Source: a virus. Taken from it: DNA of 64,000 nucleotides. The stretch is from the IMG/VR virus record IMGVR_UViG_3300026078_000023, positions 29,290 to 93,289 of that record. One strand, 5' to 3'. Of this stretch, positions 2,919 through 44,050 are shown piece after piece. Both the position numbers and the translations under genes were made by a program. Under the pieces are notes generated by a model that made no database searches, was not told where the DNA came from, and worked only from the letters and a program-made list of their open reading frames with translations. Numbering within the stretch: the stretch's first letter is position 1; each line of letters starts with the position of its first letter.

Positions 2919-3469
2919 CAGCGCGCCAGCGCCTGCTTGAGGGCCTCGGTGAGTTTGCCGGCCAAGACGGCGTCGACCTGCGCCTTGACCGAGGTGCGCG
3001 CCTCGTCGACGACCTTGGTCATTTCCCTGGAGAACACCTCCTGCACGGCGGTGTGGATCATGCTCTGGAGCAGCGTCTTGTTGCTGCTCCGGTCGCCGCT
3101 CGGTGAGTTGAGGGACGTCACCACCAGCTCGGCGATGGTCCTGCGCTTCAGCTCCTTGCCCGAGTACACCTCGTGCTCGGGGATGCCCTCGGCGATCACG
3201 CGCGCCACCTCGGCGCCGACCAGGTCGCGCACGACCTCCGGGGTGATGGTGTTGACCGCCTCCTGAGCGCGCCGCTGGATCTCCTTCTGCGCCTGCTCCT
3301 TCCAGCCGCGCGCCACGATGATGCTCTCGAGCGCGCCGGTCATGACGTGCTCGAGCGCCGACACTGGGATCCCGCCGATCATCACGGTCGTCGCCTGCGA
3401 CGCCGCCTGGTTCGCGCGCGCCTCCTCGTACTCCCGCTCGTCTGGTTCTTCCGATCCGAATTCGCTCAT
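2918..3469 (-). CDS. Unknown helical protein in recombination operon
   Basis: 183 residues. An acidic N-terminus (S-E-F-G-S-E-E-P-D-E) is followed by alternating helices rich in Glu, Lys and Val, ending K-L-T-E-A-L-K-Q-A-L-A-R. I recognise no domain. It resembles in composition the 125-residue protein at 61682-62059, but I see no clear alignment. The start has GAGGAGA upstream. It is translationally coupled to the UvsY-like gene (stop and start overlap by one base), so a role in the recombination apparatus is possible but unproven. Confidence 0.75.
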   Translation of the reverse strand: MSEFGSEEPDEREYEEARANQAASQATTVMIGGIPVSALEHVMTGALESIIVARGWKEQAQKEIQRRAQEAVNTITPEVVRDLVGAEVARVIAEGIPEHEVYSGKELKRRTIAELVVTSLNSPSGDRSSNKTLLQSMIHTAVQEVFSREMTKVVDEARTSVKAQVDAVLAGKLTEALKQALAR

Positions 3470-3500
3470 CTCGATCTCCTCTCGCGTTCGTCGTCTTCGT

Positions 3501-4076
3501 TCAGAGCAGGTCCTCGCAGGTGGCCTCGACGCGCTCGCGGAGCACGTCGGGCGGGACCACCTCGAGCACCGGGACGGCTCCGGCTGCCTGGAGCTGGGCG
3601 CAGGCGCGGTAGGCCTCCTCGGCCGTCTCGCACCCCTGCCGGCGGAGGGCCAGGACGAGCTGGCGCATGGTCTTCACCTTCGCGAGCGCCCCGACGTCCA
3701 GCCCCGATCCACCAGCAGGAGCGGCACCTCCGGCGGGTCCCGGCGGAACAGCGGCGACAGGTCCACCTGCCCGCCGTGGGACAGGGCCAGGAGCATCCGG
3801 TCCTGAACCGGCAGTACCACCAGTGGCGGCAGGGACGGGACCACCATCGGTGGCCGCGCCCGCTCCGCCTCGAACCACCTCCGGAGTTTCCGCCGGCCGA
3901 GCCGGTTGAGACGCCCCCGGTGCACCAGGAGCACCTGCTTTCGCCGCCGAGCCCTTCGCTTCGATGCCATGCGCTTCCCCCTCCTTCGCCGGACCCAGTG
4001 CGTTGCGGAACGCGAGGAGCGTGTCCAGGAACACCTGCTCCGACGAGTCACCTTCGATCTCGATCTTGATCCTCAT
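3501..4076 (-). CDS. Unknown protein with Pro/Ala/Gly-rich linker
   Basis: 191 residues from the ATG at 4076. Residues 1-28 (MRIKIEIEGDS...) form a small beta-alpha unit. Roughly 40-120 is a low-complexity Ala/Pro/Gly linker. The last 60 residues form a helical domain with two cysteines (R-R-Q-G-C-E-T and R-A-C-A). The start overlaps the HTH gene stop by ATGA. It is also preceded, 7 bases away, by the CCGGCCAACAC motif, so it may have both coupled and independent expression. An ATG further upstream at 4121 would lie inside the HTH gene and is less likely. Confidence 0.65.
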   Translation of the reverse strand: MRIKIEIEGDSSEQVFLDTLLAFRNALGPAKEGEAHGIEAKGSAAKAGAPGAPGASQPARPAETPEVVRGGAGAATDGGPVPAATGGTAGSGPDAPGPVPRRAGGPVAAVPPGPAGGAAPAGGSGLDVGALAKVKTMRQLVLALRRQGCETAEEAYRACAQLQAAGAVPVLEVVPPDVLRERVEATCEDLL

Positions 4077-37717: not shown

Positions 37718-38261
37718 CCCTTGTCTCCGTTCTCCCTCTTGACGATGTCAGCGAGGGCGCGCTCGAGCTTCGTGGCCTGCTCGCGGGTGAGCCCGAGCGC
37801 CTCCGACCAGCGGACGTGTCCGTACCGGCACAGGTAGGCCAGGCGCCCGTAGGTGCTGGCCTCGAACCTGCGCAGGTTGAAGCGCACGCTCACCCCACCG
37901 TGGTCGTGAGGTTTTTTACGAAATCGTCCAGCTCGCCGGCGTCGAGGCCGTCGTTCTCGAGCTTGGCCCAGGCGACCTTCAAGTACGCGCGCACCTGGGG
38001 CGACTGCTCGTCGAGCCAGTCGAGGTTGTCGCTGGCCGGCTTGCCATCGATCTCGAACACCACCCGGCGGAGGACCTCGGCGTCGAGGGCCTTCTGCGTC
38101 CCGCCGACCAGCTGCGCGGCCTTGGCGGCGTCGAGCTCCTCCCCCAGGGTCGGCGGCCGCATCTTGAACTTCTCGATGTCGGTCGGCCAGACGCGGGCCT
38201 TCGCGGGGATCTCGCCCGACATGACCGGGCGCTTCAGGGTGCTATCGAGGGACTTGCTCAT
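37714..38261 (-). CDS. Tail assembly chaperone, -1 frameshift product (gpGT-like)
   Basis: Ribosomes slipping back one base on A AAA AAC (37911-37917) after residue 117 enter a frame open for 65 more codons (P-H-D-H-G-G-V-S-V-R-F-N-L-R-R-F-E ...), giving about 182 residues. The extension (Y-G-R-L-A-Y-L-C-R-Y-G-H, T-R-E-Q-A-T-K-L-E-R) has coding-type base usage and ends in TGA overlapping the tape measure ATG. This mirrors lambda gpG/gpGT, where the T part recruits tail tube to the tape measure complex. Represented as join 37911-38261 and 37714-37911. Confidence 0.75.
37890..38261 (-). CDS. Tail assembly chaperone, short form (gpG-like)
   Basis: 123 residues. Helical, acidic, with the core T-L-G-E-E-L-D-A-A-K-A-A-Q-L and L-D-W-L-D-E-Q-S-P-Q-V. 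It lies between tube and tape measure, the usual chaperone slot. The start has GGAGGAAGG about 10 bases upstream. The start codon region is part of a 9-bp inverted repeat (see 38259-38309). Near its 3' end codons GTA AAA AAC give the slippery heptamer A AAA AAC. Confidence 0.78.
   Translation of the reverse strand: MSKSLDSTLKRPVMSGEIPAKARVWPTDIEKFKMRPPTLGEELDAAKAAQLVGGTQKALDAEVLRRVVFEIDGKPASDNLDWLDEQSPQVRAYLKVAWAKLENDGLDAGELDDFVKNLTTTVG
37911..37917 (-). promoter_or_regulatory. Slippery heptamer A AAA AAC (-1 frameshift site)
   Basis: The heptamer is in the correct register relative to the chaperone zero frame (GTA AAA AAC). The zero-frame stop comes 7 codons later, and the -1 frame is open to the tape measure start. 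GC-rich sequence follows and could fold as a stimulator. Confidence 0.75.
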
Positions 38262-38309
38262 CGTGCCTGCCTTCCTCCGGGCCCGGGATTGGGCCCGTCC
38301 GGCACGATG
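38259..38309 (-). promoter_or_regulatory. Nested hairpin that pairs the chaperone start codon
   Basis: On the mRNA, CATCGTGCC (38301-38309, just after the tube stop) can pair with GGCACGATG (38259-38267), which contains the chaperone ATG. Inside, CGGGCCC (38291-38297) pairs with GGGCCCG (38278-38284) around a 6-base loop. The ribosome site GGAGGAAGG lies in the enclosed region. The structure would reduce chaperone translation relative to tube, or make it depend on an unfolding event. The inner stem may also attenuate transcription. Confidence 0.55.
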
Positions 38310-38750
38310 CTACGCGATTACCTTGAAGTCCGGGGCCTCGGCCGTGAGCTTGAGGGGGACGTAGGCGTCGCGGCCGGACATGCTGAAGCCCGGGTCCTGG
38401 AAGTGCAGGTCGCTGACGCTGATGCGCTTCCGCTTCTGCTGGAAGGCCATCGAGAACGTCACGTTGATCTGCGTGTCGGCCGCCGAGGTGCGCCGGGACG
38501 CGCGGTCCCGGATGGCCTCCAAGATCTCGATGATCTCCGGCGACTCGGCGTCGATCGACAGTTCCAGGGCCACGCCCCGGTAGATGTCGTCCCTCCGGTC
38601 GGTCGTCTCTCCGAGGTAGCTCTTGCGGAGGATGTCGACCTTCACGGTGAAGGTCAGCGACTCGACCGCGGTCAGGGTGCGCTTGAGCTCCCCGCCCTTG
38701 GTGAGGCGGATCTGGATCTCCTGGCCCTTGATTCTCAGCTCGTCAGCCAC
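38310..38750 (-). CDS. Tail tube protein
   Basis: 146 residues, GTG start with AAGGAAA upstream. Beta-rich with the pattern I-Q-I-R-L-T-K-G-G-E-L-K-R-T-L-T-A-V-E-S-L-T-F-T near 13-36 and V-A-L-E-L-S-I-D-A-E-S-P-E near 61-73, typical of tube proteins of contractile tails. It polymerises as stacked hexameric rings inside the sheath. Sheath lies upstream and chaperone downstream, the canonical order. Confidence 0.75.
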   Translation of the reverse strand: MADELRIKGQEIQIRLTKGGELKRTLTAVESLTFTVKVDILRKSYLGETTDRRDDIYRGVALELSIDAESPEIIEILEAIRDRASRRTSAADTQINVTFSMAFQQKRKRISVSDLHFQDPGFSMSGRDAYVPLKLTAEAPDFKVIA

Positions 38751-38764
38751 GCTCGTTTCCTTTC

Positions 38765-39055
38765 TCAGGCCGCCTGTCCGGGAACCACGATCTTTCCGAT
38801 CTGGGCCATGTACTTCACGCTCAGCGATTCGACCTGGACCTCTATTTGCCTGACACCAATCGCCGCGAGGCCCGGGCCGATGCCATGCGCGACCACGCTG
38901 AACCCGCTGATCTCTCCGGAAGCGACCAGCTCCTCGAGAAACTTCCTCGCCTTTTTCGACCAGTCGGCCACCACGGCGTCGTCGGCCGGGCGATCGAGGT
39001 AGCCCTCGGCGAGCTCGCCGAGGAAGTCGGACACCTTCTGCTTCGTGTTCTCCAT
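38765..39055 (-). CDS. Small protein between sheath and tube
   Basis: 96 residues. An N-terminal helical part (K-V-S-D-F-L-G-E-L-A-E-G-Y-L-D-R) is followed by a small alpha/beta C-terminal domain (I-S-G-F-S-V-V-A-H-G-I-G and V-R-Q-I-E-V-Q-V-E-S-L-S-V). Tail-operon proteins in this slot are usually unknown. No family recognised. Confidence 0.6.
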   Translation of the reverse strand: MENTKQKVSDFLGELAEGYLDRPADDAVVADWSKKARKFLEELVASGEISGFSVVAHGIGPGLAAIGVRQIEVQVESLSVKYMAQIGKIVVPGQAA

Positions 39056-43963: not shown

Positions 43964-43993
43964 GGGTCCTCATCCTTTCGGGGCCGAAAAGAG

Positions 43994-44035
43994 AACGGCC
44001 CGCCCCGCCAGACTGTCCTGGCGAGAGCGGGCCGT
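43994..44035 (-). terminator. Strong intrinsic terminator
   Basis: The arms at 43994-44011 and 44018-44035 pair through most of their length (ACGGCCCGC with GCGGGCCGT, CGCCAG with CTGGCG) around a 6-base loop. On the minus strand TCTCTTTT follows. It ends the unit transcribed from the 44476 promoter. Confidence 0.8.
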
Positions 44036-44050
44036 CAACGGCGACCGGGA

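Follow-up and report, generated by a model that had tools for sequence, protein, structure and literature searches.

The start codon of the tail assembly chaperone gene in an uncultured tailed phage is paired, in the predicted fold of its message, with the bases that immediately follow the stop codon of the preceding tail tube gene. The hairpin that holds it is a genuine, partly conserved RNA structure, and we propose that it is probably an intercistronic mRNA switch that couples chaperone translation to tube translation. This proposal draws on the sequence, the predicted fold, a statistical excess of structure and a second phage with a like architecture; from these we infer folding in vivo, repression, ribosome-driven opening and a purpose in stoichiometry.

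The window (the whole 64-kb stretch of DNA analysed here) is part of a 93-kb record of an uncultured virus. Its tail genes run along the minus strand in the order sheath (40781-39069), a small ORF, tube (38313..38750, with a GTG start and a product of 146 aa), chaperone (37890..38261, with a zero-frame product of 123 aa), a -1 frame extension of the chaperone, and tape measure (37717-36005). Since the message is the minus strand, on which tube and chaperone both lie, folds of the plus strand are irrelevant and were discarded. The small ORF between sheath and tube (38765-39055, minus; 96 aa) matches the C-terminal part of a tail sheath family (PHROG 23, E 2.6e-4) and may be a second copy of the sheath C-terminal domain that stands alone; in two relatives, L015 and L016, sheath and tube lie too close together to accommodate it.

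Relatives were drawn from scans of viral contigs, which returned one identical virus, the contigs L015, L016, L019, L020 and L021, and a number of more distant ones. L015 (G001) is the closest, with a sheath 83% and a tube 68% identical to those of the window, followed by L016 (G002; sheath 66%, tube 51%), by L019, L020 and L021 (sheath 56-58%), and by distant relatives whose tubes are 31-39% identical. The contig IMGVR_UViG_3300005614_000075 belongs to the same virus, being 100% identical at the DNA level over the 5.5 kb compared, and is uninformative for covariation; L017 (sheath 94%) ends within the sheath gene, so that its gap is not readable. Searches of named phage records and bacterial genomes returned no relative of either sheath or tube, and plasmids contained no relative of the sheath.

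Neither tube nor chaperone is recognised by the sequence families of Pfam and PHROGs, and their identities come from other evidence. An AlphaFold2 model of the tube protein (pLDDT 77.8) matches, in a Foldseek search, the tail tubes of phage Mu, Pam3, P1 and diffocin, together with pyocin-like and contractile injection systems; this structure search, and the position of the gene after the sheath, support its assignment as a tail tube. For the chaperone, support comes from synteny (the order tube, chaperone, tape measure is present in relatives), from the fold, which weakly matches that of the HK97 chaperone 2ob9, and from a conserved -1 frameshift site with its extension. An in-frame slippery heptamer, A AAA AAC, lies near the 3' end of the gene (37917-37911, minus), from which the -1 frame is open for about 67 aa to a stop at 37716-37714, ending on the tape measure start. 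Equivalents of the heptamer, mostly of the form U UUU UUA/C in close relatives, occur in L015, L016, L019, L020 and several distant relatives; in L021, L003, L004 and L007, scanned likewise, none of such form was found. The heptamer stands 8-15 codons ahead of the zero-frame stop, and the extension is conserved in most relatives. This is the arrangement of the lambda G/GT chaperones, in which a slippery heptamer and a -1 extension are likewise followed by the tape measure (PMC5009743), and as far as the sequence goes it is a programmed frameshift of that already known kind.

The hairpin occupies the junction between these two genes. Read in the sense of the mRNA, the order is TAG CATCGTGCC GGA CGGGCCC AATCCC GGGCCCG GAGGAAGGCA GGCACGATG, in which TAG is the tube stop codon (38312-38310) and abuts the 5' arm of an outer stem, CATCGTGCC (38301..38309). 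The 3' arm of that stem, GGCACGATG (38259..38267), ends in the chaperone ATG (38261-38259), so that the nine bases straight after the tube stop form a perfect 9-bp helix with the start codon itself and the six gap bases that precede it. Within it, separated from the outer 5' arm by GGA, lies a 7-bp GC inner stem formed by CGGGCCC (38291..38297) and GGGCCCG (38278..38284), which closes the loop AATCCC, and on the 3' side an internal loop, GAGGAAGGCA (38268..38277), carries the Shine-Dalgarno sequence and is unpaired with a probability of 0.77 in the local fold. The sequence-only reading of this DNA had described just such a structure, with nine-base complementary arms that include the ATG, a 7-bp GC stem inside them and the ribosome site in the enclosed loop, and had suggested folding as a check. 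The observation is confirmed on all these points: the predicted local fold has an energy of -31.6 kcal/mol and places the start codon in the stem with a pairing probability of 0.97. One figure needs adjusting: the gap proper, from tube stop to chaperone start, is 48 nt, and the 51 bases given earlier include the ATG.

High GC content raises the background of stems, and one rival explanation is that short GC-rich gaps often fold by chance, the likeness to L016 being partly shared ancestry of a few bases. When the gap alone was shuffled with dinucleotides preserved (5000 shuffles), the observed energy had a z of -3.7 (p 0.0018), and a perfect helix of at least 9 bp that includes the ATG arose in only 0.135% of shuffles (0.00135), while helices of at least 6 bp that include it arose in about 5%. 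The tube-chaperone gap is also the most structured of the 27 short gaps (25-130 nt) in the window. These three results, the energy shuffle, the helix shuffle and the gap rank, are views of a single fact and do not constitute independent tests. A separate survey, which took in 88 stop-to-start junctions of five related phages by a mechanical definition, places the 9-bp helix of the window first among all helices that contain a start codon; second place, at 6 bp, is shared by the tube-chaperone junction of L016 and a junction with a GTG start in the window.

It is L016 that provides the principal comparative evidence. Its gap reads TAG|CATCGC...GCGATG, with the ATG within the stem and the same folding as in the window; shuffles give a z of -5.2 (p about 0.001), and the gap is the most structured of 16 in 40 kb of that contig. 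We counted compensation by hand from the gap sequences, since MAFFT, when applied to the gaps of the window and its two nearest relatives, ignores the arms. Five outer pairs of the outer stem are the same in both phages, the sixth is C-G in L016 where the window has U-A, and the two inner stems, wholly different in sequence, are nonetheless both paired. In both phages the 5' arm of the helix begins at the first base after TAG, and the CATCG that follows the tube stop is common to the window, L015 and L016. The CAT that faces the ATG encodes nothing, so that its retention beside the stop in all three is the informative part.

The other relatives give a less uniform picture. L015 keeps CATCG after the stop, but its 3' side reads GAGAAGATG, which reduces the outer stem to an optional and weak 4 bp; its ATG is paired only in an alternative 1.3 kcal/mol weaker than the minimum-energy fold, and structure in the gap as a whole is not significant (p 0.18), nor does the gap have a rank, the simple gene caller having missed the chaperone start in the gap survey. 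In L021 the start codon is free, and it is the Shine-Dalgarno sequence, AAGGAG, that is paired, with a CTCCT close behind the tube stop; that helix again begins right after the stop, and the gap ranks first of ten (p 0.012). Gap folding in L019 and L020 is not significant and the feature is missing (L019 gap rank 4 of 9), and the gap folds of the distant relatives (tubes 31-39% identical) contain no comparable structure at the start codon. In L010, a distant relative, a large nested hairpin occupies the tube-chaperone gap at 3424-3516 with the start codon outside it (p 0.008). The check suggested earlier, for arm changes in relatives that lack compensation, gives a mixed answer: L016 shows compensation at one pair and has exchanged its inner stem for another, L015 has changes in the 3' arm, and L019 and L020 are without the feature; the support that double changes lend to the pairing comes from only one independent phage.

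Taken across relatives, chance appears quite an improbable explanation. It is favoured by the lack of significance in L015 and in L019 and L020, by the one shuffle in about twenty that yields a start-codon helix of at least 6 bp, and by the possibility that L016 resembles the window partly because both inherited CATCG. Against it stand the first rank of the tube-chaperone gap in three of the five phages, the low shuffle p-values in the same number of phages, and the fact that the 9-bp helix and one of the two 6-bp helices that head the junction survey belong to the tube-chaperone junctions of two phages.

The comparison with L016 also bears on the idea that the hairpin is a protein-binding operator, to which the tube protein or the chaperone would bind and so repress chaperone translation, in the manner of autoregulation by RNA-phage coat protein or ribosomal protein L20. 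The usual form of such an operator is a hairpin that contains an internal loop and is placed at a start site, and the present structure has that form. The window and L016, however, share no loop or bulge sequence, their inner stems being fully replaced, and there is no match in Rfam above the gathering score; the covariance models gave sub-threshold matches only, none of them within the hairpin and all on the opposite strand. We consider this explanation very improbable indeed.

How firmly the stem would form depends on the context in which it is folded. Sequestration of the start site is strong in the local fold of the window. Over 49 flank-length contexts, the outer stem of the window has a probability above 0.5 in only 30, and that of L016 in all 49. 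With longer flanks alternatives compete in the window, and the outer stem is missing from the minimum-energy fold of a 181-nt stretch. We argue that the short contexts are the more relevant, because a real mRNA would be covered by ribosomes upstream. The cost of opening the structure locally is about 19-22 kcal/mol; therefore, if the stem forms, unassisted initiation would be very weak, and an essential chaperone would therefore rely on its being opened by translation of the tube.

The mechanism that we propose for this opening makes use of the position of the 5' arm. While the outer stem is folded, the chaperone start codon would be hidden and independent initiation blocked. A ribosome terminating at the tube TAG would cover the next 9-12 nt or so, which is exactly the 5' arm; the outer stem would open while the inner GC hairpin stayed folded, freeing the ATG and the Shine-Dalgarno sequence, and the chaperone could then be started either by another ribosome or by the terminating one, the 48-nt gap being long enough to hold two ribosomes at once, one terminating and one initiating. 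The outcome would be that chaperone synthesis is confined to messages on which tube is being made and runs at a fraction of the rate of tube synthesis. Two features expected of such coupling are present, namely closely spaced genes on the same strand and a structure that includes sequence covered by the upstream ribosome, since covering the nine nucleotides after the stop frees the ATG in the predicted fold. A ribosome on the stop codon was simulated by covering 10 nt. With 10 nt downstream of the ATG included, the probability that the ATG is unpaired, 0.00 in both phages before, became 0.96 in the window and 0.64 in L016; with 30 nt downstream, the L016 ATG was only 0.25 unpaired. Residual structure near the chaperone start in the window still costs about 11-16 kcal/mol to open with the ribosome in place, which in this model fits a low yield of chaperone.

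A stable hairpin directly behind a stop codon might instead insulate the chaperone from the terminating ribosome. In that case it would be a ribosome termination structure, which blocks scanning and re-initiation after the tube stop; fresh ribosomes would start the chaperone, and the pairing of the ATG would be incidental. Such structures, defined by position and energy and proposed as insulators, are enriched in bacteria straight after stop codons, where the gap is at least 25 nt, the energy is low and the upstream gene is highly expressed (PMC7518266). The junction resembles them in each respect: judged on position and energy rather than by the published sliding-window definition, it has a hairpin straight after the stop at -31.6 kcal/mol, far below the threshold of -6 kcal/mol or lower, a gap of 48 nt and an abundant upstream product, and the hairpins after the tube stops of L015 and HK97 leave the ATG free. 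An insulator of this kind, however, has no need of a downstream start codon in its stem (PMC7518266), yet two diverged phages pair theirs with the first bases after the stop, and an opening cost of 19-22 kcal/mol would block fresh initiation as well. We regard insulation as an unlikely account of the hairpin.

Similarly unlikely, in our judgement, is a role at the level of the transcript, in which the element would be a 3'-end stabiliser, a processing site or a weak transcription attenuator following the abundant tube message, lowering the downstream transcript and pairing the ATG as a by-product. In its favour, the inner stem forms a compact hairpin rich in GC, and there are precedents at this position. 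In HK97 a hairpin lies directly between the major tail gene gp12 and the chaperone gp13 and is annotated as a putative terminator; we find it significant (z -2.8), with no U-tract and an unpaired start codon. In cluster O mycobacteriophages the major tail gene is closely followed by a stem-loop with a T-rich tail (TTTCT), which has been interpreted as a terminator (PMC4351075). The present stem, however, is not followed by a U-tract, and a terminator scan gave no site at the hairpin; a strong terminator would also deprive the tape measure and baseplate genes, which share the strand, of their transcript, and the pairing of the start codon in two phages would be left unexplained.

Two other strong hairpins were observed in gaps on the minus strand of the window. 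At about 43964-44050, in a gap of 87 nt whose z lies between about -3.2 and -3.7, a long GC stem is followed by TTCTCTTTT; by its sequence the element resembles a transcription terminator, placed ahead of the gene at 43963-43574. At about 1112-1260, a 149-nt gap contains a very stable, long inverted repeat (z -5.25) followed by the AT-rich AAATTTTT, likely a terminator or a regulatory element.

Coupling by RNA unfolding, the reading that we prefer, has well established analogues. In MS2 coat-lysis, f1 VII-IX and E. coli rpmI-rplT the downstream start is likewise structured and its partner strand can be opened by the upstream ribosome, and in rpmI-rplT the spacing, at +52 nt, is similar to the gap of 48 nt here (PMC12548453). 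Those systems were studied by experiment, whereas ours is described from sequence and folding, and it differs from them in the gene pair, tail tube followed by tail chaperone, and in the exact pairing of CAT with ATG beside the stop. Elsewhere at the equivalent junction, the lambda V-G gap is 15 nt long with no notable structure, the P2 FII-E hairpin is not significant, and the short gap in Mu is without structure. The principle of start sequestration is therefore known, and hairpins have been noted close to this junction before; what a limited search of the open-access literature did not find described is a chaperone start codon paired with the bases that follow the tube stop. The initial impression that no such device had been reported for this gene pair accordingly holds for start-codon sequestration, within that literature, and fails for tube-adjacent hairpins as such, which have been described as terminators in HK97 and the cluster O phages (PMC4351075).

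It is conceivable, though we consider it doubtful, that the junctions of tube and chaperone genes in tailed phages carry a recurrent and fast-turning-over RNA gate that ties chaperone dosage to completed translation of the tube. Such a gate would be built from different sequences in each phage, by pairing of the ATG with post-stop bases in some, by a hidden Shine-Dalgarno sequence in others, and by a plain hairpin in HK97 and P2.

In phages generally, the tube protein is needed in far larger amount than the chaperone; tail assembly consumes tube subunits in large number, needs fewer copies of the chaperone and takes very few of its frameshifted form. The sequence-only reading concluded from this dosage that a structure which reduces initiation or responds to tube translation would fit, an argument that is sound as general phage biology within an interpretation that our results partly support. 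That a programmed frameshift sets the ratio of chaperone to frameshifted chaperone is textbook knowledge, while it is less clear how the ratio of tube to chaperone is obtained from one message. The latter would find a simple and testable answer in a hairpin that adjoins the tube stop and pairs the start codon of the chaperone, and such a hairpin can be searched for at the tube-chaperone junction of any tailed phage. If a recurrent RNA gate of the kind considered above exists, it would constitute a second layer of stoichiometric control above the known G/GT frameshift.
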